This document shows positions 32 through 63,156 of a DNA stretch of 64,000 nt, piece after piece. A program made the translations under genes and the position numbers. The notes under the pieces are model-generated. The model did no database searches. It was not told where the DNA came from and worked only from the letters and a program-made list of their open reading frames with translations. The first letter of the stretch is position 1, and every line of letters begins with the position of its first letter. The DNA comes from Gimesia algae (GTDB lineage: Bacteria; Planctomycetota; Planctomycetia; Planctomycetales; Planctomycetaceae), in NCBI RefSeq assembly GCF_007746795.1, contig NZ_CP036343.1, positions 5,307,357 through 5,371,356 on the forward strand, in the 5' to 3' direction.

Positions 32-353
32 TGAAGACTCCTTATTGACTAAGAATTGAAACAACAATTCACATCTGTGAATCGTGTTCAGGCAGGAACA
101 GGACTGATAATCTGCAATTATAAGGCACAGGGAAACAGCTTTGCAAAGATCAAGCTGTGTTTATATCTGATTTGACTTTATTCTTTTCTGTACGTCTCGC
201 AGGAAATTCTTGCTAAAATGAAAGTCGGCAAATCAAGTACACTTGGATATGAAGGTGACGGTGAATCCAGTTGAAACGGCGTAAAGCAGGATTGAACTGG
301 ATGCGATCTGTTTATAAGCGACATTAAGAAATAGAACAGCAGTAATTTCCAGC
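32..353. other. Intergenic region upstream of dinB
   Basis: No convincing gene. An imperfect stem-loop at 133-162 (arms AAACAGCTT and AAGCTGTGTTT) is followed by a T-rich stretch. No sigma70-type promoter or LexA-like operator was recognised before dinB. Confidence 0.5.
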
Positions 354-1544
354 ATGCGAACAATCCTACACGTAGACATGGACGCGTTTTACGCGTCGAT
401 TGAGGAACGGGACCACTCGGAACTGCAGGGGCAGCCCATCATCGTCGGGGGTCGAGCTGAACACCGGGGCGTCGTTTCGGCTGCCAATTATCCGGCCCGA
501 AAATTCGGAGTGCATAGTGCCATGCCAATGAAAACGGCCAGGCAACTTTGCCCCCAGGCGCATTTTTTTCCGGTTCGCATGAGCGACTATGCCGAGGTAT
601 CTCAAGCATTACAGAAGATCTTTCGTAAATACACTCCACTGGTGGAGCCACTTTCTTTAGATGAAGCGTTTCTGGATGTGAGTGGCAGTCAACTCCTCTT
701 CGGGAATGGGAGAGAAATTGCTTCTGCAATCAGACTGGAAGTCAGACAGAGTTTACAGTTAATTGCCTCGGTCGGTGTCGCCCCCAATAAATTTCTAGCC
801 AAAATCGCCAGCGATGCTGATAAACCTGATGGACTGGTCGTTGTCGAACCAGATAAAATCCAGGAGTTTCTCGACCCACTGCCTGTTTCCCGCGTCTGGG
901 GGATTGGAAAAGTGGCTACCCAGCGTTTTAACCGACTGGGGATTCAGACCATTGCGCAATTGAGAGTATTAGAACCCAAAATCTTGACGGAACTGTTCGG
1001 CGAACAGGGCCTTCACTTGAAGAATCTTTCCCAGGGAGTAGATGATCGGGCTGTGGTTCCCGAAAGGCAGGCCAAATCAATTTCGCGTGAAACGACATTC
1101 ACCAGTGACGTCACTGATCCGGAGATACTGAGAACCATTCTGACAGGCCTGGTAGAAGATGTGGCACGTCGATTGCGCAAAAATAATCTGCGTGGTAAAA
1201 CCATCCAGTTGAAAATTCGTTATGATGACTTCTCAACATTTACGAGATCAATCACAGTATCTCAACCGACAGACCTCACCAGAGAAATTGAACAGTCAGC
1301 CTTGCAAATGCTGGATCAGAAATTACCGGAGCGGCCTCTCTCCATCAGGTTAATTGGTGTCGGTGTGACAGGATTTCAAAGTGGTTCGCAGCACCAGAAA
1401 TCATTATTCGATGAAGAAGATCAACAGAAATTCTCTCGTCTGGATCAGGTCAAGGATCAGATAGCCAGTCGCTTTGGAAGCAATTCTATTACCCGGGGCA
1501 ATCGAATTTCAAGCGAGGACTCGCAAGAAGAAACGTCGTCTTAA
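354..1544 (+). CDS. dinB: DNA polymerase IV (Y-family translesion polymerase)
   Basis: Error-prone DNA polymerase that copies past damaged bases. The N-terminal HVDMDAFYASIE motif supplies metal-binding D8 and aromatic gate residues F12/Y13. SLDEAFLDVS at 101-110 supplies the catalytic D103/E104 pair. A helix-hairpin-helix stretch (VWGIGKVATQRFNRLGI, about 181-197) and a little-finger domain follow. QKSLF at 348-352 fits the sliding-clamp binding consensus, although about 44 residues follow it. At 396 residues it is slightly longer than E. coli DinB because of this tail. The ATG at 354 is preferred because the first catalytic motif begins only a few residues later; no strong Shine-Dalgarno precedes it. 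Confidence 0.95.
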   Translation: MRTILHVDMDAFYASIEERDHSELQGQPIIVGGRAEHRGVVSAANYPARKFGVHSAMPMKTARQLCPQAHFFPVRMSDYAEVSQALQKIFRKYTPLVEPLSLDEAFLDVSGSQLLFGNGREIASAIRLEVRQSLQLIASVGVAPNKFLAKIASDADKPDGLVVVEPDKIQEFLDPLPVSRVWGIGKVATQRFNRLGIQTIAQLRVLEPKILTELFGEQGLHLKNLSQGVDDRAVVPERQAKSISRETTFTSDVTDPEILRTILTGLVEDVARRLRKNNLRGKTIQLKIRYDDFSTFTRSITVSQPTDLTREIEQSALQMLDQKLPERPLSIRLIGVGVTGFQSGSQHQKSLFDEEDQQKFSRLDQVKDQIASRFGSNSITRGNRISSEDSQEETSS

Positions 1545-1557
1545 CCTCGCAATATCA

Positions 1558-3114
1558 TCAGTCTTTCAATGCTGGTGCCCAGCGTTGTTTCTGAGTGATA
1601 TCGAACCGAACCCGTGTATCATTTGCGGCTTTCTGTCCTGACCGACTGCTGCCCTGCTCTATTAATTGGGTAAATTCAGTGGTCATCCGACTCACTGTTT
1701 CAGGATGCTTCTCTGCCAGATCCTGTTCTTCACCAATATCGGTTTCCAGATTGTAAAGTTCGACTATCGTCGGCTTACCCCGCGACTGTTCCAGATTTCG
1801 ACCGCTCAATTTAAAGACCAGTTTCCAGGAACCATCACGATAAGCAAATTCTCCATGATTAGAATGGCTGACCAGAGTTTGGCGCGATTCCGGATTTGCT
1901 TCTCCCAGTAGAACAGGGAGAAAACTGAGACTGTCTTCAGCTCCACTCTGCGGAAGATCCGTTCTCGCAATTTCGGCGCAGGTCGCCAGTATATCTGTCA
2001 GACAGACCATCTGCTGACTGCTGCTGCCCGCCTGAATATGGTCTGGCCAGCGTACTACCAGAGGCACACGATGCCCCCCTTCCCAGATATCTCCCTTATG
2101 GCCGCGATAGGGACCGCTCGGTTGATGACCGGCTTCTACCAGATCATTCCAACCAGTGTAGTGAGAGTGTCCGTTGTCTGCTGTGAAGATTACAATCGTA
2201 TTGTCTTTAATACCTGCCCGATCAATCGCCTGAATGACCTGTCCTGCGGACCAATCCGTTTCCATAACGAAGTCAGCAATCGGAGCGATTCCACTTTTGC
2301 CTTGGAATTTTATTGAAGGAACCACGGGTTCATGCGGCGAAGTCATAGAGAAATAGAGAAAGAAGGAAGTTTTTTTTTGAGACTGTTGCTCAATATAGTT
2401 TACAGCGCGATTTGTAATTTCGGGCAGAATATTCTGCATACGCCAGTCAGGCGCAGTCGGAGCCCCAATGAATCCCCGCGGTAAAACGATGCCTTCACTG
2501 GCATCCAATTTAAATTTGGCTGTCGGTTGTTCCAGCACATGATCATTTTCAATGAAGGTAAACGGAGGCAGGTTGGGAAGATCGACTCCAAAAAAATAAT
2601 CAAATCCCCGACTATTGGGACCTCCTTTAATCGGTTTCGTAAAATCCCATTTATATTTCCACTGTCCGTTTTTCTGCTCCCGCATCTGACTTGTCTGTGG
2701 TCCTGGCCAGTTCCATCCCAGATGCCACTTCCCGATACATGCTGTCTGGTATCCTCTTGATTTCAGCAAACCAGGCAGAGTGAGTCGATTCTCAGAAATA
2801 AGAGGAGGTTCATAAGCTGCGATTACCCATTCCTGCAATCGGGTTCGCCAGCTGTACCGACCGGTCAATAACCCATAGCGTGTAGGAGAACAGACGGCCG
2901 ACCCGCTATGCGCGTCTGTAAAACTCATTCCCTCTTTGACCAGTTGATCCAGATAAGGGGTTGGAATCTTATTGTCAGGGTAATGAGCTTGAATATCACC
3001 CACACCGAAATCATCTGCCAGAATCACAACAATATTTGGTTGAGACTGCGGTGCGGCAAACACGATACCAGGAGTAAAGCTCAACAGAAAGAACAGGACC
3101 GATTTCGAAACCAT
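1558..3114 (-). CDS. Secreted sulfatase (arylsulfatase A type)
   Basis: Type I sulfatase that hydrolyses sulfate esters, probably of algal or animal polysaccharides, outside the cytoplasm. A signal peptide of about 20 residues ends at an AxA-like site. Metal ligands D34/D35 (ILADDFG) come next, then the formylglycine signature CSPTR at 75-79, where C75 needs activation by a formylglycine-generating enzyme. GKWHLG (about 128-133), H261 and ADNG (312-315) complete the active site. The 518-residue length is normal. It converges on dinB with 13 bp between stops. A second sulfatase lies at 33433-34941. The substrate cannot be read from the sequence. Confidence 0.93.
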   Translation of the reverse strand: MVSKSVLFFLLSFTPGIVFAAPQSQPNIVVILADDFGVGDIQAHYPDNKIPTPYLDQLVKEGMSFTDAHSGSAVCSPTRYGLLTGRYSWRTRLQEWVIAAYEPPLISENRLTLPGLLKSRGYQTACIGKWHLGWNWPGPQTSQMREQKNGQWKYKWDFTKPIKGGPNSRGFDYFFGVDLPNLPPFTFIENDHVLEQPTAKFKLDASEGIVLPRGFIGAPTAPDWRMQNILPEITNRAVNYIEQQSQKKTSFFLYFSMTSPHEPVVPSIKFQGKSGIAPIADFVMETDWSAGQVIQAIDRAGIKDNTIVIFTADNGHSHYTGWNDLVEAGHQPSGPYRGHKGDIWEGGHRVPLVVRWPDHIQAGSSSQQMVCLTDILATCAEIARTDLPQSGAEDSLSFLPVLLGEANPESRQTLVSHSNHGEFAYRDGSWKLVFKLSGRNLEQSRGKPTIVELYNLETDIGEEQDLAEKHPETVSRMTTEFTQLIEQGSSRSGQKAANDTRVRFDITQKQRWAPALKD

Positions 3115-3259
3115 TTATCTCTCCAGGTTGGGGATGAATCCATATTTCTTCAAAGGAATTCAATAGATTCAGGAATGAAATATACTTTTCAATCCTAAAC
3201 AGTTTCAGACTGGAATAAAACTGACCATTCAGAATTTTGAACTGACAAGCGGTATCAAT

Positions 3260-5497
3260 TCAGCCAGCAGCCATCTCTGCAGCGGGAGTGTCTGCAGCAG
3301 GCGGTAATGGCTTTCCTGAGCTGAGACGCACCAAAGCGAATCCGATGACCACAGCCAGAAAAGAACCAACCAACCAGCTGACAGGCAGGTGCTTTTGATT
3401 CTCGATATTGATTTCCCAGTCAGCAAAGTAATTCTGAAAACTGGCAATAGTGATTAACAGACCATTGTGAATCATATGCAACAGGATACCAGGGATGACA
3501 CTGCGAGACCGTACATTCACATACGCCAGGCATAACCCCATAAAAAAGCTGGGGAAAAAGCGTTCAATAAACAGAGAATCGCGAACGATAACATGGAATA
3601 ACGCAAACAGGAGTGAAGAAGTCAGTATCGCCCACCAATTGGAGAAGCGATGGAGAAGTGAACTTAACAGGTACCCGCGAAAGAAAAGTTCTTCGCAGAC
3701 AGCCGGCATAACAGCCAGCGACATCAACTTGACCCATAAAGGAACGGCAGCGAGTTCGATTTTCATTGATTCAAACAGGCGGGAAAGTGTCTCAATTCTC
3801 GCATCGGTTAATGCGAAGATTTCTATTTCATAGGCGAAGGGCCATAAAGTACATCCCAGCAGTACGGCGCCCAGGCAGGAGATCACACGTGGTTTAAACC
3901 AGCGAAAACCAGTCTTAAAATTTACACCGCCCAGCCACGCAAACAGCAGAGGGATCAATAGAAACAGACAAAAAGTCAATGCTCCTGAAACCAGCAGTCG
4001 CTGAGAAATTGTCAGCTCCCTGAGCCGTCCAACAAAAGCGGCGGACAGAATAAATACGGGGAACATCACCGCCAGACAAAGCATGGAATTGTTCAAAGCG
4101 GGAGACTGGTGAGTCTTGCGGGATCGCTTAAAAAAATCAGACCACGAAGTTTCACTCTGATACAGAATGGTATCTGTTCCGAAAATCCGTGCAGCAAGAC
4201 TGAGCGCGAGGATGCCATAGAATAAAGTAGAAAACACAGATATAAAGAACAAGAGTGGTTCAGCTTCATGCAATAGAAAGTCGCGGCTTAACAACACGAT
4301 GTTCGCTAGTGGGATTACTGCCCACAGGGGAGTCATTTTCAGATCCGGTACCATCCCCAGTATTCCGGGCGCCATTGAAATCAACATTAACGGAATCAGA
4401 TAGGCTTGCGCTTCCTTAAAACTGCGGGCAAAACTCGTGATACACAACAGCACTGCGGAAAAGAAAGCAGCAAAGATTACCAGTAACAATAATATTTCCA
4501 TCAGCACAAACAGGGTCATGCCTTCACCGAAGAGCACTGTTTCCAGGCCGTTGGCATAGGCAGTTGCCAGCATGGCTGTCATATTGACCAGCGCTGTCAT
4601 GACAGCAACAACCAGCACCGAAATAAACTTGGCGCACAAGATCCACATCCGGGGCAGTGGCGCTGAAATAAGAGTTTCCAATGTACCCCGCTCACGTTCC
4701 CCCGCAGTCAAATCGATGGCGGGATAGACTGCTCCCGTCATTGTCATCAAAATTAATATTAAGGGAACAATGGTGACCAGCGAGTACGCCTGCACCATTT
4801 CTGATTTCACCGAGGAGACTGACGTGATAAAAGGAACGGTCTGACTCTCCCCCAGGTTCGTCAGCAACTGGTCCCGGTAGTTCCAGCGAACGGCCTGTAA
4901 ACGCTCTTCCACATATTCTGCAGCGCGACGACTATGATTGGATTGTGCTCCATAAATTATCTGAAATCGACCACTGTGCTCTTTCTGTCCGAGTTTCACA
5001 TGCGTGTTTTCGATCGGAAAATATCGAACGCCGACATCTACAACACCTTCGCGAACCAATTTTAGAATATTGTGATTCTCGCCGGTTGATTCGGCAATCA
5101 TGAATTTCATAACCGGTTTGACTTCCTGAAATGCTGCCAGTGCATTATCAGGATTGGGGTCTTCCACAGCTTTCAGTCTAGTGAGCGACTGGTTTCTCTC
5201 TTCATAGATTTTATCCCCCTGCTCAAACAGTGCGCGAAATAACTGCCCTTCCGATTCATTGGGTAGAACAATTCGATATTCAATTTCGTTTAGCTGCGAT
5301 GCCTGACTCAGAAAAAATTTCTGCAGCATTAAACCCAGTAAAGGATAGACCAGCAATGGCATCAGAATTAATGTAATGACAGTCCGTCGATCCCGAAGGA
5401 TTTCGCGAAGTTCTTTTCGCAACAGTCCTGAGAACCGGAAAGATCTGGTAGGTGTGTAAATGCGGTCGTCAGAATCCTGATCGTAGGGAGACGCCAT
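3260..5497 (-). CDS. ABC-2 permease fused to a CPBP intramembrane protease
   Basis: Two families in one chain of about 745 residues. The first 430 or so are a NatB/ABC-2 permease: cytoplasmic N-terminus, one membrane helix (about 41-62), a large extracytoplasmic domain, then a helical bundle from about 240 with a GERERGTLETL loop typical of these permeases. The C-terminal part has all three CPBP (Abi/Rce1-like) motifs: EELFFR near 603-608, FALFH near 632-636, and H and N near 675/679, so the protease looks intact. The start is the ATG at 5497, which shares its A with the TGA of the ATPase gene (TGATG), implying translational coupling. Likely an exporter; the cargo is unknown. Confidence 0.88.
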   Translation of the reverse strand: MASPYDQDSDDRIYTPTRSFRFSGLLRKELREILRDRRTVITLILMPLLVYPLLGLMLQKFFLSQASQLNEIEYRIVLPNESEGQLFRALFEQGDKIYEERNQSLTRLKAVEDPNPDNALAAFQEVKPVMKFMIAESTGENHNILKLVREGVVDVGVRYFPIENTHVKLGQKEHSGRFQIIYGAQSNHSRRAAEYVEERLQAVRWNYRDQLLTNLGESQTVPFITSVSSVKSEMVQAYSLVTIVPLILILMTMTGAVYPAIDLTAGERERGTLETLISAPLPRMWILCAKFISVLVVAVMTALVNMTAMLATAYANGLETVLFGEGMTLFVLMEILLLLVIFAAFFSAVLLCITSFARSFKEAQAYLIPLMLISMAPGILGMVPDLKMTPLWAVIPLANIVLLSRDFLLHEAEPLLFFISVFSTLFYGILALSLAARIFGTDTILYQSETSWSDFFKRSRKTHQSPALNNSMLCLAVMFPVFILSAAFVGRLRELTISQRLLVSGALTFCLFLLIPLLFAWLGGVNFKTGFRWFKPRVISCLGAVLLGCTLWPFAYEIEIFALTDARIETLSRLFESMKIELAAVPLWVKLMSLAVMPAVCEELFFRGYLLSSLLHRFSNWWAILTSSLLFALFHVIVRDSLFIERFFPSFFMGLCLAYVNVRSRSVIPGILLHMIHNGLLITIASFQNYFADWEINIENQKHLPVSWLVGSFLAVVIGFALVRLSSGKPLPPAADTPAAEMAAG

Positions 5498-53147: not shown

Positions 53148-54014
53148 ATGAATGATTTGATGGATCGAAATAAATCACTGAGTCAATACCTCTGGGCCAG
53201 TTTTATCTGTACCTGTCTCTCGCTGTCAACTCCCGCCTTCTGCCTCGCTGCAGAAGAGTCAGGGACGAGTGCGGGGACAGACATCTCAAAAATCGATTTC
53301 CGACAACTCGTTGATGATGCGGGTACGATTGGAATCATTATTGCGGTCCTGAGTATCGCCATGGTGGCTTTAATCGTGGAGCATATTATCAGTATTCGCA
53401 GAAATGCTCTGATGCCCCCCGGCCTGGCGGAAGAAGTTCACGGTTTGATCACACAGCAGCAATATCGCAGTGCGGATTCCGTCTGTAAGTCAAACCCCAG
53501 CTTTCTATCTTATCTACTGTCTGCCGGACTGGCTGAAGTTCAACTGGGGTACGGTGCCGTCGAAAAAGCGATGGAAGATGCAGCGATGCAACAGTCGGCA
53601 CGATTGAATCGGAAAATTGAATACTTGTCAGTCATTGGTACACTCTCTCCCATGCTGGGACTGCTGGGGACAGTTTGGGGAATGATCCTGGCCTTTTCGG
53701 AATTCACTGCCAAAGCCAACCCGGATGTGGCAGAACTGGCTCCCGGGATCTCCAAAGCGCTGATCACAACTCTATTCGGTCTGAGTGTCACCGTGCCCGC
53801 ACTCGCCAGTTTTGCTTTTTTTCGTAACAGGATTGATGAGCTCGTTGCTCAATCCTCACTATTAGCCGAACATGTTTTTGCTGACTTCAAACGCAGTATC
53901 GCTGTTCCAGCGAAACAGTCGGGTAAACCAGTCCGGAAACGACCGGAAGATGAACTTGCACAACGGCTCGCCGATCAACAGGGAACACGACCCTCACCAC
54001 CTCCCGAAGGATAA
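53148..54014 (+). CDS. MotA/TolQ/ExbB-type proton channel protein
   Basis: 288 residues. After a signal-like N-terminus come three membrane helices: IIIAVLSIAMVALIVEHI (about 62-80), VIGTLSPMLGLLGTVWGMILAF (about 160-182) and KALITTLFGLSVTVPALASFAFF (about 202-225). The two later helices form the family's conserved pore region. It works with the two ExbD-type proteins directly after it. The driven partner is not obvious; the VWA and TPR proteins are candidates. Confidence 0.9.
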   Translation: MNDLMDRNKSLSQYLWASFICTCLSLSTPAFCLAAEESGTSAGTDISKIDFRQLVDDAGTIGIIIAVLSIAMVALIVEHIISIRRNALMPPGLAEEVHGLITQQQYRSADSVCKSNPSFLSYLLSAGLAEVQLGYGAVEKAMEDAAMQQSARLNRKIEYLSVIGTLSPMLGLLGTVWGMILAFSEFTAKANPDVAELAPGISKALITTLFGLSVTVPALASFAFFRNRIDELVAQSSLLAEHVFADFKRSIAVPAKQSGKPVRKRPEDELAQRLADQQGTRPSPPPEG

Positions 54015-54019
54015 AACAG

Positions 54020-54436
54020 ATGAGAGTCCCTACACGTCCCCGCCAGCCTGGAATCCGATTTAACATCACTCCCCTGATCGATATTGTCTTTCTGCTGGTT
54101 GTCTTCTTTCTGGCCGCGACTCACCTCACTCAAAATGAGAAGCTGGAAGCGGTCGAACTGCCCGAGGCATCGCAAAACGAATCCGAGCCGGATGAAACGC
54201 CGCGACGGATGATAATCACAATCACCCTGGATGAAAATCTGCATCTACGCGGGAACGAAATCAGCCCGGAGGAACTGGAAGCACAACTTCTGGCACTGGA
54301 TGAAAGCAAACGACACGAAATGGAAATCCGCATCCGCGGAGACCGACGGATCCCGTACCAAATTGTTGAACCCGTGCTGATCAGCTGCGCCCGCGCAGGT
54401 ATTTCCAACGTTAAATTTCTTGTCTTGAATGAGTAA
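54020..54436 (+). CDS. ExbD/TolR-type protein 1
   Basis: 138 residues. A single N-terminal membrane helix carries FNITPLIDIVFLLVVFFLAAT, with the aspartate that carries protons in ExbD/TolR. A periplasmic domain follows. AAGGA precedes the ATG and the gap to ExbB is 5 bp, so it is co-translated. Confidence 0.93.
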   Translation: MRVPTRPRQPGIRFNITPLIDIVFLLVVFFLAATHLTQNEKLEAVELPEASQNESEPDETPRRMIITITLDENLHLRGNEISPEELEAQLLALDESKRHEMEIRIRGDRRIPYQIVEPVLISCARAGISNVKFLVLNE

Positions 54437-54448
54437 CTGCCCTTTGCC

Positions 54449-54916
54449 ATGAAAATCCCTTCTCATCATAACAGCCGCTCCGATATCCAGGACCAGGCTA
54501 CCATGACGCCGATGATTGACGTGGTATTTCTGCTGCTGATCTTCTTTATCAGCGCATCAGCAAACCAGGTTCGTGAATTTCTGCTGCCAACTGAACTCGC
54601 GACCGGCAGCATTGAATCATTTGAATCAACTCCGCAAGAACAGCCGCTGGGGGAAGTCTGGTTAAAACTCAAACGGCAGGATAATCAGACTATTGTAGAA
54701 TTAAATGAGCGCGAGTATGCTCAGTTCGATCAATTGAAACAGACATTGATGGAACTGGCAGAACTGGCACCAGAAATCCCTGTGATTCTGGACATTCAGG
54801 AAGAAGTCCCATTGGGTGAAATGATTCGCACCTACGATACTTGCCTGGCTGCTGGCTTCCAGTCAATCAATTTTGCTACCAACGCAAATAAAGTCGCTCC
54901 CAAAAAGAAACTGTGA
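54449..54916 (+). CDS. ExbD/TolR-type protein 2
   Basis: 155 residues. MTPMIDVVFLLLIFFISASA is the ExbD/TolR helix with its proton-path aspartate. The periplasmic part differs clearly from ExbD-1, so it is not a recent duplicate. Two ExbD beside one ExbB suggests a heteromeric stator, a common planctomycete arrangement. Confidence 0.93.
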   Translation: MKIPSHHNSRSDIQDQATMTPMIDVVFLLLIFFISASANQVREFLLPTELATGSIESFESTPQEQPLGEVWLKLKRQDNQTIVELNEREYAQFDQLKQTLMELAELAPEIPVILDIQEEVPLGEMIRTYDTCLAAGFQSINFATNANKVAPKKKL

Positions 54917-55958: not shown

Positions 55959-56345
55959 ATGGTCATGATCAAAAAGTGGCTCGCGCACGCCTTCGCGGTA
56001 GAACGCCCGGAAGATTTTGTTCCCACCGTCGAGCAGCAGCAGATTGCAGATCGCATCTGCCAGGAAGTCATTCGCCGGGAGATGGTGACTCTGGCCATCC
56101 TCACCCTGGAAACCTGCCGCCCTCTGAACTACATCGGTTCACAGGCCATTCATTTCTTCACTCCATTACTGTCAATCCTGGTTGATCCACGGTCACAGAA
56201 AATCTTTGCTGACTTTCTTGAACAGCGAAGCTCCATTGAATGGCTGTGCCAGCGATTGGAATTCTTAAGCAATAAGCAGCCGGAAGATCAAAGTCCGCCT
56301 GTTGATCCTGCACCATTGCCTGTCTTGAAAAAAGATGATTCCTGA
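55959..56345 (+). CDS. Conserved-looking small helical protein, unknown
   Basis: About 128 residues; the start is ATG 55959 or ATG 55965 (both follow CTAGG; a TTG at 55908 is less likely). Mostly alpha-helical: EQQQIADRICQEVIRREMVTLAILTLETCRPLNYIGSQAIHFFTPLLSIL, then a Pro-rich tail. It has one marginal hydrophobic stretch, possibly membrane-associated. It lies 65 bp before the GlmL-like gene on the same strand and is plausibly the first gene of that operon. No family recognised. Confidence 0.6.
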   Translation: MVMIKKWLAHAFAVERPEDFVPTVEQQQIADRICQEVIRREMVTLAILTLETCRPLNYIGSQAIHFFTPLLSILVDPRSQKIFADFLEQRSSIEWLCQRLEFLSNKQPEDQSPPVDPAPLPVLKKDDS

Positions 56346-56410
56346 CAAAAGATATACGGCCTGAACGACACTTCAACTGCTCTCAGATTGACACGGATGG
56401 TGAGTCAGAT

Positions 56411-58249
56411 ATGAACTCAACGACAGCAAAACAACTTGACCCCGATCAGATCAACGTGATCCTGGCGACTGATTGCGGCAGTACCACCACCAAGGCGATT
56501 TTGATTGAAAAAATCAATGGTGAATACCGTCAGACATTTCGTGGTGAGGCCCCCACCACCGTAGAAGAACCTGCTGCAGATGTGACGGTAGGCGTTGTCA
56601 ATGCCGTTACCGAAGTCGGTGAGCTCGCAGGTCGCAAACTGATCGATGACAACGGTGAAATCATTCGGCCGGCACAGGGAGATACCGGTTGTGATATTTA
56701 TATTTCGACATCCAGCGCGGGTGGTGGTCTGCAAATGATGGTGGCTGGCGTGGTTCGTGAAATGTCTGCCGCCAGTGCAAAGCGCGCCGCTCTGGGAGCG
56801 GGTGCGATTGTCATGGACATGATCTGCTCCAACGATAAACGACTGCCTCACGAACAGATCCAGCGAATCCGCGAACTGCGCCCTGACATGATTCTGCTGG
56901 CTGGAGGCACGGACGGAGGAACACTGAAACACGTCGTTGAATTGGCGGAACTGATTGCTCCTGCGAAACCACAGCCTCGTTTTGGCGGTTCCTATAAAAT
57001 GCCAATCATCTACGCAGGGAACCAGGAAGCAGCCAAACTGGTTGAAGAAGCGTTTGACGATGATGTGAAACTGATGACGGTAGCGAATGTCCGACCGGTA
57101 CTGGAAATGGAAAACCTGGCGCCTGCACGCGATGCCATTCACGATCTGTTCCTGGAACATGTGATGGCGCATGCCCCGGGTTATAACAAACTGATCTCCT
57201 GGGCCGATGCCCCGATCATGCCAACCCCCGGTGCGGTCGGAAATATCTTACAGACAATCGCAGAACAACAGAATATCAATGCCCTCGGCGTCGACATTGG
57301 TGGTGCAACGACCGATGTCTTCAGTGTTTTTGATGGTACCTTTAACCGCACGGTGAGCGCCAACCTGGGGATGAGTTATTCAATTTCCAATGTGTGCGCT
57401 TCAGCAACCCTTCCGATGATCTTGCGCTGGGTCCACCTGGATATGGATCCACGTGAACTGCGTAATCATATCAAGAACAAAATGATCCGTCCGACGACCA
57501 TTCCGCAGACCCGGGAAGCGCTGGTCTTCGAACAGGCAGTCGCCCGTGAAGCATTACGCCTGGCTTACATTCAGCACAAAGAGTTCGCGACTACTTTAAA
57601 AGGTGTGCAACAGCAGCGAACAGTGGGGGATACCTTCAGCCAGAACTCCAGCGGCGCCTCAATCGTTGATAATATGAAACTCAATCTGCTGGTCGCCTCG
57701 GGCGGAGTTCTCTCACACGCCCCCAGCATGAACCAGACAGCCGGAATGATGATCGATGCATTTGAACCGGAAGGCATGACCGTCCTGGCCAAAGACAGCA
57801 TTTTCATGATGCCTCATTTAGGGGTACTCGCACAGGTTCATCCCCGCGCAGCGCTTGAGGTATTTGAACGTGATTGCCTGATTTATCTGGGAACCTGTAT
57901 TGCGCCACGAGGCTTATATCGTGCGGGTAAATCGTGCTTTCGTTATCACATCCGCAGCCATTCACTTAAAGAATCCGGGGAGATGCTCTGTGGCGAGATG
58001 AAGTTGTTTCCGCTGGATGAAGACGAACAGGCGACGGTCACGGTAGAACCCGGTCGAGGTTACGATTTTGGAGCCGGTTCTGGTAAACGGAAAGAGTTTC
58101 AAGCCCGAGGTGGTAAGGTGGGACTGATTCTGGACGCACGTGGCAGACCGCTGGTTGTCCCCACCAGTGAAAAAGACCATTTAACAGAATTAAACAGCTG
58201 GATCGAAGAACTGCAGCTGTATCCTGAACCGGCTCTTACTGAAGTATGA
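56411..58249 (+). CDS. GlmL/MutL-like ASKHA-fold ATPase
   Basis: 612 residues with an actin/HSP70-like nucleotide-binding pattern: phosphate-1 loop DCGSTTTKAI (21-30), STSSAGGG (100-106), adenosine/connect loop LLAGGTDGGT (162-171), and phosphate-2 loop GVDIGGATTD (293-302). It matches the glutamate-mutase-accessory GlmL/MutL family. The known role is to protect or reactivate a cobalamin-dependent mutase, but no mutase subunit lies here. The next genes are membrane proteins instead, so an ATPase role in that complex is more likely. GGTGAG supports the ATG. Confidence 0.85.
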   Translation: MNSTTAKQLDPDQINVILATDCGSTTTKAILIEKINGEYRQTFRGEAPTTVEEPAADVTVGVVNAVTEVGELAGRKLIDDNGEIIRPAQGDTGCDIYISTSSAGGGLQMMVAGVVREMSAASAKRAALGAGAIVMDMICSNDKRLPHEQIQRIRELRPDMILLAGGTDGGTLKHVVELAELIAPAKPQPRFGGSYKMPIIYAGNQEAAKLVEEAFDDDVKLMTVANVRPVLEMENLAPARDAIHDLFLEHVMAHAPGYNKLISWADAPIMPTPGAVGNILQTIAEQQNINALGVDIGGATTDVFSVFDGTFNRTVSANLGMSYSISNVCASATLPMILRWVHLDMDPRELRNHIKNKMIRPTTIPQTREALVFEQAVAREALRLAYIQHKEFATTLKGVQQQRTVGDTFSQNSSGASIVDNMKLNLLVASGGVLSHAPSMNQTAGMMIDAFEPEGMTVLAKDSIFMMPHLGVLAQVHPRAALEVFERDCLIYLGTCIAPRGLYRAGKSCFRYHIRSHSLKESGEMLCGEMKLFPLDEDEQATVTVEPGRGYDFGAGSGKRKEFQARGGKVGLILDARGRPLVVPTSEKDHLTELNSWIEELQLYPEPALTEV

Positions 58250-58274
58250 TTCAACCAAAAGAGATCTAAGAATT

Positions 58275-59405
58275 ATGGCGAAGGCATATTCCCCCGGGTT
58301 ACAGATCAGTCAGCGCGTCCTGCATTCCAGCAGGCGGATACTCCCTATTCCTGGTGATGTACTCGTTCAGGAAGGGGATCGGGTTACCGCAGACCAGATC
58401 GTGGCCCAGACATTCATGCCCGGTGATGTCACTCCGATTAATATTGCCAATCAGATTTCGGTAGCACCCTCTGAAGTCCCCCATTGCATGCTCATTGCTG
58501 CAGGGGACGAAGTCCACGTAGGAGACATACTGGCACGCAGTAACGGGATTTTCGGATTTTTCAAGTCGGAAACAAGAGCAAAAACCGCAGGGACGATTGA
58601 ATCAATCTCCCACGTGACTGGGCAGGTCATCTTACGGGGCGCCCCCATGCCGATTCAGGTTTGTGCCTACCAGGCGGGAAGGGTGAAAGAAGTCATCCCC
58701 CAACAGGGAGTGGTTATCGAATCAGAAGTCGCTTTCCTGCAGGGAATTCTCGGGATTGGTGGAGAAGCCTTTGGAACGATCACCTTCGCCTGCCAGAACA
58801 AACAGGAACCTCTGACAGCAGAACTGCTTGATGAATCGATGCGGGGAAAAATCGTTATTGGCGGTGCTCGTATGACCGGCAAAGCAGTGATGCGGGGAAT
58901 CGAAATTGGTGTCGCCGCGATGATTTCAGGGGGAATCGACGACGAGGACTTGAAAGAAATTCTCGGCTACGATCTGGGGGTAGCCGTCACCGGATCAGAA
59001 CATATTGGCACGACTCTGATCATCACAGAGGGCTTCGGTGATATCGCGATGGCAGATCGAACATTCAACCTGCTGAAAGAACAGGAAGGAGCGAAAGCCG
59101 CCGTCAATGGGACTACACAAATCCGTGCTGGCGTTCTGCGACCGGAAATCGTCATTCCCCTGGATGACAGGTCCTCTGCAGGCAAAGAAACCAGACAGGC
59201 TGTTTCAGCAGGAATTCTGGAATCGGGTGTCCCCGTGCGGATTATTCGCGACCCCTATTTTGGTCTGCTGGGACAAGTAGGTGAGATGCCTACGGAACTG
59301 CGAACACTCGAATCAGGATCTTTGTCACGCGTCTTGGAAGTCATTCTGGATTCTGGAGAAAACGTGATTGTTCCCCGTGCCAATGTGGAACTCATCGAAG
59401 GATAA
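58275..59405 (+). CDS. Soluble protein with barrel-sandwich-like N-terminus, unknown
   Basis: 376 residues, no signal peptide or membrane helix, hence cytosolic. The N-terminal 140 residues repeat short beta units with the turns PGDVLVQEGDRVTAD and AAGDEVHVGDILA, reminiscent of biotinyl/lipoyl or NqrA/RnfC-type barrel-sandwich hybrids. The middle (about 195-260) has an alternating alpha/beta pattern with GKIVIGGARMTGKAVMRG. The C-terminus (SRVLEVILDSGENVIVPRANVELIEG) looks like a small KOW/SH3-like barrel. It follows the GlmL-like gene by 25 bp. Confidence 0.7.
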   Translation: MAKAYSPGLQISQRVLHSSRRILPIPGDVLVQEGDRVTADQIVAQTFMPGDVTPINIANQISVAPSEVPHCMLIAAGDEVHVGDILARSNGIFGFFKSETRAKTAGTIESISHVTGQVILRGAPMPIQVCAYQAGRVKEVIPQQGVVIESEVAFLQGILGIGGEAFGTITFACQNKQEPLTAELLDESMRGKIVIGGARMTGKAVMRGIEIGVAAMISGGIDDEDLKEILGYDLGVAVTGSEHIGTTLIITEGFGDIAMADRTFNLLKEQEGAKAAVNGTTQIRAGVLRPEIVIPLDDRSSAGKETRQAVSAGILESGVPVRIIRDPYFGLLGQVGEMPTELRTLESGSLSRVLEVILDSGENVIVPRANVELIEG

Positions 59406-59411
59406 CCATTC

Positions 59412-60668
59412 ATGCAATACTGGATCAATAAGGTGTGTCTGAAAATACCACTGCTGCTACTGATCTTCGCTTACGGATTCTCAGTGGTTCGCGCTGCAGA
59501 ACCACCCGCGCCTCCTACGGATTTCCGGGCTGAGGATGTTCCGGGCGATGCAGGCACCGCTATCGATCTGTTCTGGACTCTCTCCCCCGATGACAAACCC
59601 GATCTCAAACCGCGTAAGGTCTTACGATATATCATCTCCCGTAAAGCAGTAGATGAGTCTGATGCCAAATTTGAAAATATCGGCGAACCCACCTATCGAG
59701 TCAATACATTTCGCGATTCAAACTGCGAGCCCGGTACCCCCTATCTCTATCGAATCGAAGCCGTCGGGCAGGAAAGCATGACATCCTCCCCTGTCGTCAT
59801 TAAAGAACCGATTATCGCGACGCTGCAATGGTTTAACCTGCAGCGCAGCTGGTTCGCGGTCTTTGTCGTATTAATCTGCGGCGCAGTCATCTTCTTTATC
59901 CGACTGGCGCGTAGCGGCAAAAAACTGAAAGTCAGAAAAATTGCAGGTCTGGAAGCGATTAACGATGCAGTGGGCCGTGCGACAGAGATGGGGCGTTCCT
60001 GCCTGTTCGTCCCCGGGATTCAGGATATCAATGACATTCAGACTGTCGCCGGAATTACCATCCTCGCTCAGGTGGCAGAAACGACGGCAGATTATCGCGC
60101 CCAACTGGAAGTCCCTACTTCTCGCTCACTCGTAATGACAACAGCCCGCGATACCGTGGAAGCCGCCTACCTGTCAGCGGGTAGACCCGATGAATACAAC
60201 GAAGACGATATCTATTACATCACCGACGAACAGTTCGGGTATGTTGCCAGTGTCACGGGTAAAATGGTCCGCGACAAACCGGCGGCCTGTTTTTACATGG
60301 GTGCATTTTACGCCGAATCATTGATTCTGGCAGAGACCGGTAATTCGGTTGGTGCCATTCAGATCGCCGGCACCGCGATGCCCACTCAGCTCCCCTTTTT
60401 CGTCGCCGCCTGTGATTTCACCCTGATTGGTGAAGAATTCTTTGCCGCCTCCGCATATCTGTCTGGTGAACCACAGCAGTTGGGTAGCTTGAAAGGACAA
60501 GATTTCGGAAAACTGATCGGGGGCCTGGTACTGATTGCCGGCTGTCTTCTCGTGACACTCTCCGCGATCCAGTCACGTGGAGTCGCTCTCGAAAACCAGG
60601 AACCGACCTTTTTCCAGACTGCATCGAACTACATCATAGAGAATATCCTCGGTAAAGGAGGTTTCTAA
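59412..60668 (+). CDS. FN3-containing membrane protein (DUF6754-like)
   Basis: 418 residues. A signal peptide (about 10-28), an FN3-like beta-sandwich about 33-130 (LRYIISRKAV, GTPYLYRIEAVG), then membrane helix at about 145-162. Cytosolic domain about 170-365 with KKLKVRKIAGLEAINDAVGRATEMGRSCLFVPGIQDINDIQTVAGITIL. A second helix at about 372-390 and an amphipathic end. I recognise this layout as DUF6754; that name is from memory. It follows the previous gene by 6 bp, with AAGGA. Confidence 0.75.
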   Translation: MQYWINKVCLKIPLLLLIFAYGFSVVRAAEPPAPPTDFRAEDVPGDAGTAIDLFWTLSPDDKPDLKPRKVLRYIISRKAVDESDAKFENIGEPTYRVNTFRDSNCEPGTPYLYRIEAVGQESMTSSPVVIKEPIIATLQWFNLQRSWFAVFVVLICGAVIFFIRLARSGKKLKVRKIAGLEAINDAVGRATEMGRSCLFVPGIQDINDIQTVAGITILAQVAETTADYRAQLEVPTSRSLVMTTARDTVEAAYLSAGRPDEYNEDDIYYITDEQFGYVASVTGKMVRDKPAACFYMGAFYAESLILAETGNSVGAIQIAGTAMPTQLPFFVAACDFTLIGEEFFAASAYLSGEPQQLGSLKGQDFGKLIGGLVLIAGCLLVTLSAIQSRGVALENQEPTFFQTASNYIIENILGKGGF

Positions 60669-60670
60669 TA

Positions 60671-61399
60671 ATGAAGCGAACCATCCCCCTGCTGATTTCC
60701 GCAATGACAGGATTCATATTGATAGGCACCGCATTTATCCCCCGGTTTGTCGACTGGGGAAACATTGCGATGGCCTGGTTCAATCTGCTCGCAGCATTCG
60801 CCTTTATTCTCGGTGGAGGCAATCTACTCAAAATGCAGTTGCAGAAAATCTCAGCACAACAACCAGGCTGGGGTTATGCTGCAGTTACCTTGATTGCATT
60901 TTTTATCACCCTCTTTGTGGGACTGGCAAAAGTCGGCGTGCACCCGAATGTCAATTTCCCGGAATTTACCTGGTCAGGAGATTATCTGCAGGAAGATGGT
61001 GCCTTCTGGTGGTTGTTTGAATATATTTTTACGCCGCTCTCTGCCACCATGTTTGCCTTGCTGGCGTTTTATATTTCTTCCGCCGCTTTTCGGGCCTTTC
61101 GTGCCAAAAATACGGAAGCCACGATTCTACTGATCATTGCCGTCATCATTTTACTGGGACGTACTTATGCCAGTGTCTGGCTGACAGGCTGGTTTCCGGA
61201 TGAATTTATTCTCGGCGAAAGTGGCATCAAATACAGTGATTTTAAACTGCAGAATTTATCGGAAATCATCATGGAAGACTTTATGACTCCGGGAATGCGG
61301 GCCATCAAGATTGGAATTGCACTTGGGGTGGCTTCCACTTCGCTGAAAGTTTTATTAGGCGTTGACCGTTCTTACCTTGGCTCAGATCAGGAGGCGTAA
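60671..61399 (+). CDS. Polytopic membrane protein of the GlmL-like operon
   Basis: 242 residues with about five to six membrane helices (roughly 5-25, 32-50, 65-85, 116-138, 150-170 and 215-232). The short C-terminal KVLLGVDRSYLGSD looks conserved. AAAGGAGG lies directly before the ATG, an unusually strong site. It begins 2 bp after the FN3 gene. Confidence 0.7.
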   Translation: MKRTIPLLISAMTGFILIGTAFIPRFVDWGNIAMAWFNLLAAFAFILGGGNLLKMQLQKISAQQPGWGYAAVTLIAFFITLFVGLAKVGVHPNVNFPEFTWSGDYLQEDGAFWWLFEYIFTPLSATMFALLAFYISSAAFRAFRAKNTEATILLIIAVIILLGRTYASVWLTGWFPDEFILGESGIKYSDFKLQNLSEIIMEDFMTPGMRAIKIGIALGVASTSLKVLLGVDRSYLGSDQEA

Positions 61400-61402
61400 T
61401 CA

Positions 61403-62266
61403 ATGCTGAACTTTCTACAACACCTGGATCGCCGCTGGATCTTTTTACTGATGTTTATCGCCGTTGCCGTCCCCCTCATCATGGGCACCACGTTTCCAGA
61501 AACACCTTCGCCGCAGGTACTGGCGGTCTTTGATGCAGTCGATAATCTGCCCGACGGTTCCAATGTCGTTATGGCATTAGACTATGACCCTGCCAGCCAG
61601 GGAGAGCTTCAGCCCATGGCTTCGGCCTTCGCACGTCACTGCGCCATCAAAAAACATAATATTTACTTTATGACACTCTGGCCTCAGGGAATTTCGATGA
61701 TCCAGAAGTCGATCGACATCCTGCAGGAAGAGTATCCGGAGACTTACAAAGGTAAATACGGAACAAAATACGTCAACCTCGGCTTCCGGGCCGGCAATGA
61801 AGGCGTCATAAAACTGGTCGTCGAAGATTTGAAAAAATCCTACTCCACTGACATTCATGGAACCAATCTTGATAATATCCCCCTCACGAAGAACCTCAAA
61901 AACATTCAGCAGGTCGATCTGTTATGCAATGTGAGTGCCGGATATCCCGGTTCACAGGAATGGGTACTTTACGGCTCTTCCCCCTTTGATATCCCCACCG
62001 TTGTCGGCTGCACCGGAGTTCAGGCCCCGACGATGTTGCCTTACATTCCCGACCAACTCACCGGCATGCTCGCTGCAATCAAAGGAGCCGCGGAATATGA
62101 ACAGGCCATTATCAATGTGTACCCACAACTGAAGAATAACCCGAACGCCAAAGAAGGTCTGATTCGCATGGGACCTCAACTGGTCGCACATATTCTGCTC
62201 ATCAGCTTGATATTCTTAGGTAATGTGATTTATTTCTGGGAACGAAAACAGGGACTGCATCAATGA
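61403..62266 (+). CDS. Membrane-anchored protein with large soluble domain
   Basis: 287 residues. One helix at about 14-30, a soluble domain of about 220 residues, then a second helix at about 258-276. The domain alternates strands and helices (SNVVMALDYDPASQGELQPMA, HNIYFMTLWPQG, KYVNLGFRAGNEGVIKLVVEDL, IPTVVGCTGVQAP), as in a Rossmann-like or periplasmic binding fold. AGGAGG precedes the ATG. Its TGA overlaps the next start (ATGA). Confidence 0.7.
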   Translation: MLNFLQHLDRRWIFLLMFIAVAVPLIMGTTFPETPSPQVLAVFDAVDNLPDGSNVVMALDYDPASQGELQPMASAFARHCAIKKHNIYFMTLWPQGISMIQKSIDILQEEYPETYKGKYGTKYVNLGFRAGNEGVIKLVVEDLKKSYSTDIHGTNLDNIPLTKNLKNIQQVDLLCNVSAGYPGSQEWVLYGSSPFDIPTVVGCTGVQAPTMLPYIPDQLTGMLAAIKGAAEYEQAIINVYPQLKNNPNAKEGLIRMGPQLVAHILLISLIFLGNVIYFWERKQGLHQ

Positions 62267-63156
62267 AGCAATCAACACTCATCTGGACAATCTTGATGGT
62301 CGCCGGTGGTGCATTTCTGCTGTTCCAGGCCAGTAAAGGAAACGGGCGCGTCTATGTGCGTGAAATTCCCGTTGATGCCCAGTCATCTCAGCCCGAGGGA
62401 GAGAAACAGGATTACCACTGGAACCGTTATCAACAGGTGACAGAGAGTGAAAAAGGGGAACCGGATGTTCGCTTCAGTTTTTCACGAACGCTGGGATTGT
62501 GGGTCGCCGCTTTTTGTACGTTGGCTATTTTCTCCTTTCTCTACGGCGACAACCCGATCTACAAATTTACCGAATCGGTTTTTGTTGGAGTTTCTGCCGC
62601 GTATGCGATGATCGTCTCCTTCTGGACGGAAATCATGACCAACCTGTACGCGAAACTTCTGCCAGACCTGGCACGCATTACGTTTTTCCCTGATATTGAT
62701 TCCACAGCCGAGCCAGACTATCTTTACCTGATCCCGCTCGTCTTGAGTATTTTACTTTTATGGCGTCTGTCTCCCAAAGGCAGCTGGATTGCCCGTTGGC
62801 CACTGGCGTTCTTTATCGGCGCGACAGCCGGCATCCGCTTGATCAGCTATCTGGAAACGGACTTTATTGGACAGTTGCAAAGTACCGTGATGCCCTTCCT
62901 TGTTTTTGCTTCCGATGGCTCGCTGCTGTGGATTAAATCATTACGAAACACCATATTCATCGTGGGCGTACTGTCCTGCATGATCTATTTCTTTTTCTCA
63001 GTCGAACATGAAGGCATCATCAAATATATCTCCCGTCTGGGAATCTGGTTTTTGATGGTCACCTTTGGTGCCAGCTTTGCGTATACCGTCATGGGTCGAA
63101 TTGCCCTGCTCAGTGGTCGACTTGTTTTCCTGTTTAATGACTGGCTGGGAATTTGA
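62263..63156 (+). CDS. Polytopic membrane protein of the GlmL-like operon
   Basis: 297 residues. A first helix (about 6-24), then a charged segment, and about six helices after residue 80 (LWVAAFCTLAIFSFLYG, SVFVGVSAAYAMIVSFW, LYLIPLVLSILLLWRL, WPLAFFIGATAGIRLI, TIFIVGVLSCMIYFFF, LGIWFLMVTFGASFAY). Conserved-looking YGDNPIYKFTESVFVGVSAAYAM. It overlaps the previous gene by 4 nt, closing the operon. Confidence 0.7.
   Translation: MKQSTLIWTILMVAGGAFLLFQASKGNGRVYVREIPVDAQSSQPEGEKQDYHWNRYQQVTESEKGEPDVRFSFSRTLGLWVAAFCTLAIFSFLYGDNPIYKFTESVFVGVSAAYAMIVSFWTEIMTNLYAKLLPDLARITFFPDIDSTAEPDYLYLIPLVLSILLLWRLSPKGSWIARWPLAFFIGATAGIRLISYLETDFIGQLQSTVMPFLVFASDGSLLWIKSLRNTIFIVGVLSCMIYFFFSVEHEGIIKYISRLGIWFLMVTFGASFAYTVMGRIALLSGRLVFLFNDWLGI

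Follow-up and report, generated by a model that had tools for sequence, protein, structure and literature searches.

The window, a stretch of 64,000 nucleotides from Gimesia algae (NZ_CP036343.1; host genome of 7.93 Mb on one contig, completeness 100), contains an operon of seven open frames, P1 to P7, all on the plus strand at 55959-63156 (coordinates are positions within the window). These genes are not arranged so by chance, since other families and phyla show the same arrangement. P2, an ATPase of the MutL/GlmL family, is not a mutase accessory in this genome, and the membrane proteins P4 to P7 very probably form one complex, as judged by linkage and co-divergence, from which contact between them is deduced. 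We tentatively propose that the operon encodes an inner-membrane machine that is driven by the soluble ATPase P2 and acts on the cell envelope, with P3 coupling the ATPase to the membrane. The seven frames are separated by 65 bp (P1/P2), 25 bp (P2/P3) and then 6, 2, 3 and -4 bp (P3/P4 to P6/P7):

P1, 55959-56345, plus strand: 128 amino acids (aa), small and soluble-looking, no Pfam family, no transmembrane (TM) segment
P2, 56411-58249, plus strand: 612 aa, MutL/GlmL-like ASKHA ATPase, PF13941 match over residues 17-489
P3, 58275-59405, plus strand: 376 aa, soluble-looking, barrel-sandwich and KOW-like
P4, 59412-60668, plus strand: 418 aa, signal-like start (by reading), FN3 domain, TM segment, DUF6754 domain (predicted Rossmann-like) and C-terminal TM helix
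P5, 60671-61399, plus strand: 242 aa, membrane protein, about six TM segments; the window copy matches no Pfam family
P6, 61403-62266, plus strand: 287 aa, a Rossmann-like alpha/beta domain (from its model) between two TM segments, no Pfam family
P7, 62263-63156, plus strand: 297 aa, polytopic membrane protein, no Pfam family over cut-off

The initial annotation had described the operon in these terms, with seven plus-strand genes of which the last five are tightly spaced, a GlmL/MutL-like P2, a barrel-sandwich-like P3, an FN3/DUF6754-like P4 and three further membrane proteins; the frame coordinates and the profile matches given below bear this out, for P3 by a weak signal. P1, P5 and P6 of the window match no Pfam family at E<=1, and the two matches of P7 are both below cut-off.

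The gene set is conserved across planctomycetes. In one identical set of 244 planctomycete genomes, DUF6754 (the Pfam family of P4) was found in 83, P3 in 79 and MutL (that of P2) in 85 at E<=0.001, 82 of them over the cut-off. All three occur together in 78 genomes, and 159 have neither MutL over cut-off nor P4 (Fisher p < 1e-55, with kinship ignored). MutL is present in every genome that has P3. A single genome (G109) has MutL and P3 without DUF6754, and only one (G029) has MutL without both others. The five genomes with DUF6754 and no P3 (G027, G038, G073, G104 and G171) are assemblies of 110-660 contigs, though some may really have lost P3.

The order of the genes was followed in 99 loci containing P4, of which 20 came from the 83 planctomycete genomes (hand-picked for diversity) and 79 from a scan of species genomes that took the best 80 of 572 confirmed relatives, 79 of them distinct. 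The loci were chosen for having P4, the same genome appears twice among them in two cases (L035/L076 and L087/L121), and gene calling in them relied on profiles built up from the window proteins. Among those best 80, the nearest named relative of P4 belongs to an uncultured Gimesia (82% identity). A complete P4-P5-P6-P7 run is present in 89 of the 99 loci. Of 145 P4 genes, 119 have P5-P6-P7 behind them; 21 of the 26 exceptions have fewer than 2500 bases downstream, and in a further one (L038) the module is present but P6 is split over two frames. The initial annotation had treated the genes as a set that should travel together, and both counts, from the genomes and from the neighbourhoods, uphold this. 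P2 or P3 is found in 60 loci (both or fused in 46, P3 without P2 in 11, P2 without P3 in three).

The loci extend well beyond the planctomycetes. P4 is found in Planctomycetota, Zixibacteria, Neomarinimicrobiota, Acidobacteria, Gemmatimonadota, Latescibacterota, WOR-3/Stahlbacteria and Coatesbacteria, as well as in a Deltaproteobacterium and a Caldithrix-named bin. All 132 genomes searched from the Zixibacteria phylum (that of L087) have DUF6754, 111 of them in four to six copies, as do 140 of 147 genomes of the WOR-3 phylum (that of L124), so the system probably has a basic role in these two phyla. In the Acidobacteria phylum (that of L060) DUF6754 was found in 3 of 149 genomes, the centre genome included; 14 well-known control genomes gave no match. 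MutL matches occur in 123 of the 132 Zixibacteria-phylum genomes, all with DUF6754; some are fragments, and most genomes list a single match. Similarly, MutL was found in 29 of 30 genomes reached via P4 loci, the exception being G245 (L107). In 24 of these 29 the fetched P4 locus itself shows no P2; among the 30 loci, P2 is found in L058, L060, L092, L098 and L127, and P3 alone in L091.

The four membrane proteins also diverge together. Two or three complete P4-P7 modules stand in tandem at 22 of the 99 loci. Over the 119 complete modules, the distances within the four proteins P4 to P7 are correlated with Mantel r of 0.75-0.90 (0 of 200 permutations). Kinship by itself might produce such a correlation, so partners were then swapped only among tandem modules of the same locus: r drops to 0.54-0.65, and none of 300 swaps attains the observed r in any of the six protein pairs. 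By P4 distance, each of the 52 tandem modules is also closer to some module at another locus than to its own neighbour. The modules are therefore old paralogous quartets whose members have been kept with their own partners, the behaviour expected of an obligate complex.

P2 matches the full profile (1-450) of Pfam MutL (PF13941; E 3.3e-127, 425.4 bits, cut-off 27) and extends about 120 aa past the match at its C-terminus. The motifs DCGSTTTKA and GVDIGGATTD, which we take to be ASKHA-type motifs for ATP use, are conserved over 38 rows, and ATPase activity is predicted from the sequence. The protein falls below the curated cut-offs of GlmL NF040745 (231.1 vs 475), NF040744, an Or-4 ornithine protein family (203.1 vs 600), and TIGR01319, a GlmL family (167.2 vs 204.05); against PDB sequences it has no match at E<=1. 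It is the sole MutL-family match in its genome. The initial annotation had seen no mutase beside it, and genome-wide there is likewise no match to PF01642 (methylmalonyl-CoA mutase) or PF06368 (GlmE), aminomutase families not having been searched. Since P2 is the only MutL gene, no PF01642 or GlmE gene was found and three GlmL-type cut-offs are missed, P2 is not a mutase accessory in this genome, contrary to the expectation that ATPases of the GlmL/MutL family go with cobalamin mutases, and reading GlmL/MutL-family genes as such accessories would mislead in genomes of this kind. B12-binding domains gave four matches in the genome, three of them over cut-off, in frames of 803, 1242, 435 and 329 aa, the last being the one below cut-off. 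The 803-aa protein (L148:793-3204) joins its B12-binding domain to an apparent sensor histidine kinase and receiver domain, as judged by reading.

A mutase operon holding this same GlmL-like gene was not found. The planctomycete G029, which lacks DUF6754 and P3, encodes a MutL protein in a 439-aa frame (E 3.1e-29) that adjoins genes read as GlmE- and GlmS-like. This region (L145:7221-10300) is apparently a true glutamate mutase operon with glmL-, glmE- and glmS-like genes, and it served as an internal control. The G029 protein is unusual in letter composition, and its branch on a quick 53-row tree rooted on it measures 10 changes per column; it is a very different and very distant protein, the tree saying little on its exact placement.

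P3 is the piece most likely to link P2 to the membrane proteins. The window copy scores 22.5 bits against RnfC_N (cut-off 25.6) and 14.6 against TIGR01945 (cut-off 245.95), and its relatives (n=33, E<=0.01) match Biotin_lipoyl (14), RnfC_N (14), NQRA_N (4) and KOW (3). P3 is fused to P2 in one frame at 3 of the 99 loci (L058, L067 and L069), all from Neomarinimicrobiota, and, as counted above, it also stands beside P4 without P2. In the window's own family, 24 genomes have P4; P2 lies near it in 17 and elsewhere in seven (G018, G099, G124, G156, G164, G184 and G218), of which six keep P3 beside P4, as judged by reading. P3 thus pairs with either P2 or P4 and is therefore seen as the coupling piece. 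Like P2, it is strongly conserved. A clean split between soluble P1-P2-P3 and membrane P4-P7 would fit G135, a single-contig genome in which P1-P2-P3 (L146) and P4-P7 (L051) lie far apart; we consider it too simple, with P3 often kept beside P4 where P2 is located elsewhere, and P1 standing before P2 in some relatives and directly before P4 in others. A second, diverged pair, P2b-P3b, was observed at L141:8275-10749, L142:8310-10817, L143:2001-5017 and L144:8391-11332, in one frame in L141 and L142, and several Zixibacteria-phylum genomes have frames of roughly 870-980 aa that may be of the same kind. Separately, a gene lies between P2 and P3 in Zixibacteria-type loci (L097:5788-6558 and L102:2541-3299; a family of five loci with L086, L100 and L129). 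Its product starts with a signal-like stretch and carries a membrane segment at the C-terminus; in the L097 copy, no Pfam match exceeds its cut-off.

P4 counts as a full DUF6754 member (PF20539; E 2.5e-123, 410.7 bits, cut-off 27), and profile matches with solved FN3 domains identify its N-terminal part as a domain of that type. The DUF6754 core has a mean column identity of 68% over 55 rows, with many invariant polar residues. One P4 frame, in L087, is 795 aa long. AlphaFold2 models were confident for both P4 (mean pLDDT 90.6, pTM 0.73) and P6 (95.7 and 0.91). After the FN3 domain and TM helix, the P4 model consists of a helix, six strands alternating with helices and a long C-terminal helix; between its two TM helices, the P6 model has the same order of elements plus two extra short helices, from comparison of DSSP strings without superposition. 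This shared order suggests paralogy of P4 and P6. The Rossmann-like class of the DUF6754 core is likewise predicted from the secondary-structure string: its profile found no relative among solved structures (one match at E 1.7), and the whole P4 model gave 474 Foldseek matches at E<=0.001, nearly all of the 50 listed being FN3 domains.

P6 apparently faces the other side of the membrane. The mean K+R count around the first TM segment of P4 is 4.35 after and 0.76 before (55 rows), and for P6 it is 3.50 before the first and 3.57 after the last TM segment (119 rows). From this charge bias, the DUF6754 domain is apparently cytosolic and the P6 domain periplasmic. Hydropathy averaged over each family marks P5 and P7 as polytopic. 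In P7, residues D96, N97, Y100, E104, H249 and R279 are invariant over 26 rows. Profiles of P5 and P7 have no PDB match at E<=10, and that of P6 has two (E 1.7 and 2.3). P6 relatives (n=56) match no Pfam family and P7 relatives (n=26) give two single matches. The P5 relatives (n=31) match seven families, among them TMD0_ABC in five (best E 1e-4) and ABC2_membrane_5 in one (E-values without cut-offs), matches we judge to be to hydrophobic segments. Described transporters thus yield a few weak P5 matches, yet probably gain no support from them. Paralogy of P5 and P7 was rejected, hhalign showing no similarity (0.6%).

In the mechanism that we tentatively favour, P4, P5, P6 and P7 would form one membrane complex, with P5 and P7 as its membrane core. 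The FN3 domain of P4 would lie outside and the highly conserved DUF6754 domain on the cytosolic side, and P6 would contribute a periplasmic domain with P4's order of alpha/beta elements. P3, helped by P1, would bring P2 to the DUF6754 domain. We infer that the ASKHA cycle of P2 would then be passed across the membrane to the periplasmic parts and would move or remodel a component of the cell envelope; the contacts and topology assumed here have the same standing, as does the initial annotation's proposal that the ATPase drives or assembles a membrane complex. In some phyla, several paralogous membrane complexes may share one ATPase. More doubtful is the full form of this proposal, in which ATP cycles of P2 reach the periplasmic Rossmann-like domain via P3 and DUF6754 and the system belongs to the core of the envelope, and is probably essential, in Zixibacteria, WOR-3 and many planctomycetes, its paralogous complexes sharing one ATPase.

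Several observations weigh against this mechanism. ASKHA ATPases are familiar as chaperone-like or assembly factors more than as motors. DUF6754 was found without MutL in 3 of the 83 planctomycetes (G027, G038 and G171) and in 9 of the 132 Zixibacteria-phylum genomes, including the chromosome record G245. P4 stands without P5-P7 behind it in L068, L075 and L087, despite 4.7-9.0 kb downstream, and with P5 alone in L098. The P2b-P3b pairs are orphans with no P4-P7 module within the fetched stretches, L143 having a weak FN3-type P4 match. By hhalign, P4 and P6 show no sequence similarity (probability 1.35%), which lends no support to their paralogy. Finally, the ExbB-like genes found near some of the operons amount to about three lineages, with no background rate for comparison.

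The chief rival sees in P1-P2-P3 a factor that uses ATP to assemble, mature or reactivate P4-P7, the complex itself working without ATP. The nearest described relatives of P2 are mutase accessory proteins, and MutL/GlmL is called a chaperone for the reactivation of glutamate mutase in a figure legend of PMC4682846. The presence of one ATPase for many modules, as in most of the Zixibacteria phylum, points the same way. Set against this is the strong conservation of P2 and P3, nearly always together with DUF6754, whereas more frequent loss might be expected of a repair factor that is dispensable. Because the evidence separates motor and assembly factor poorly, our confidence in the ATP-driven machine stays short of even, and the assembly factor is a serious, if somewhat less probable, possibility.

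A further, rather improbable alternative is that P4-P7 is a membrane enzyme whose Rossmann-like domains bind a nucleotide or nucleotide-sugar to make or transfer an envelope glycan or lipid. The many invariant polar residues of the DUF6754 core speak for it, and the Foldseek matches of P6 in the PDB are largely Rossmann-like partial matches, with GT-B glycosyltransferases, by reading, making up about half of the 50 listed. These fold matches are weak, however: only 2 of 1588 reach E<=0.001, the best has E 7.4e-4 and a TM-score of 0.31, and receptors are also among the 50. Pfam scans of the window proteins and of P6 relatives gave no glycosyltransferase family, and the P6 domain is predicted to be periplasmic, where nucleotide sugars are normally absent. 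Least credible, and nearly refuted for this genome, is the reading of P2 as the accessory of a cobalamin-dependent mutase with the membrane genes as incidental neighbours: the PF13941 match, sub-threshold GlmL scores and B12-binding domains could be cited for it, against which P2 misses the GlmL-type cut-offs, has no PF01642 or PF06368 gene to serve, couples with P3 and P4 across genomes instead, and is far on the tree from the MutL that does adjoin GlmE- and GlmS-like genes.

A literature search over 5.39 million papers, in which subscription journals and preprints were not covered, found no mention of DUF6754, PF20539, PF13941 or TIGR01319 and, among the papers listed, no description of the gene set; DUF6754 itself is only a catalogue entry. 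P2 resembles GlmL/MutL in its full-profile match and ASKHA-type motifs, but differs in its GlmL scores, its extra C-terminus, its coupling to P3 and DUF6754 and the lack of PF01642 and PF06368 in its genome. The N-terminal part of P3 resembles the barrel-sandwich domain of RnfC and NqrA, but P3 is below the RnfC_N cut-off, has a KOW-like C-terminus and is accompanied by no other Rnf or Nqr subunit among P1-P7 by Pfam and NCBIfam; an Rnf/Nqr electron transport complex was rejected on these grounds. PilM-PilN-PilO and FtsA are ASKHA-linked envelope assemblies in which a cytosolic actin-like ATPase is attached to a membrane complex. The operon is comparable in this respect, but P1-P7 have no Pfam or NCBIfam match to their partners. 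Genes resembling those of Tol-Pal and ExbB-ExbD occur nearby in the window and in some other loci, but Pfam places none of P4-P7 in these families. An anti-phage defence system was dismissed, as a PADLOC-DB search with all seven proteins at E<=0.01 matched no family. The window's family includes strain records, such as Thalassoglobus neptunius KOR42 (L068), in which gene removal may be feasible.

Upstream of the operon and on the same strand, the window contains ExbB-, ExbD-, ExbD- and TatD-like genes, named from reading their sequences, as follows:

ExbB-like gene and two ExbD-like genes, 53148-54916, plus strand: upstream of the operon

Close to the operon, and sharing a strand with all or some of its genes, an ExbB-like gene is present in 8 of the 99 loci: one from Gimesia, three Zixibacteria-type beside P2/P3 and four WOR-3-type behind P4-P7. 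ExbB/ExbD-like proteins are a possible functional partner of the operon, to be taken as a lead. In L097, a run on the minus strand (301-4111) next to P3 and on its strand resembles, by reading, ExbB/TolQ, ExbD/TolR, TonB/TolA, TolB and Pal, as in a Tol-Pal operon. In L124 (12153-14998) and the same region of L115, L119 and L125, P7 and the ExbB-like gene are separated by five conserved genes, all in the same orientation as P4-P7.

Clustering of the neighbours yielded no further family general across the 99 loci, whether bPH-, Fab/PlsX- or ExbB-like. A small bPH-like gene is present in 12 (bPH_6 over cut-off in the one copy examined), and FabH-, PlsX-, FabD- and FabF-like families, named by reading, are present in 7, 6, 6 and 5, respectively. 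In the Phycisphaerae-type loci L062, L063, L065, L066, L074 and L099, PlsX- and FabD-like genes stand behind P7, with FabH, FabG or FabF in several.

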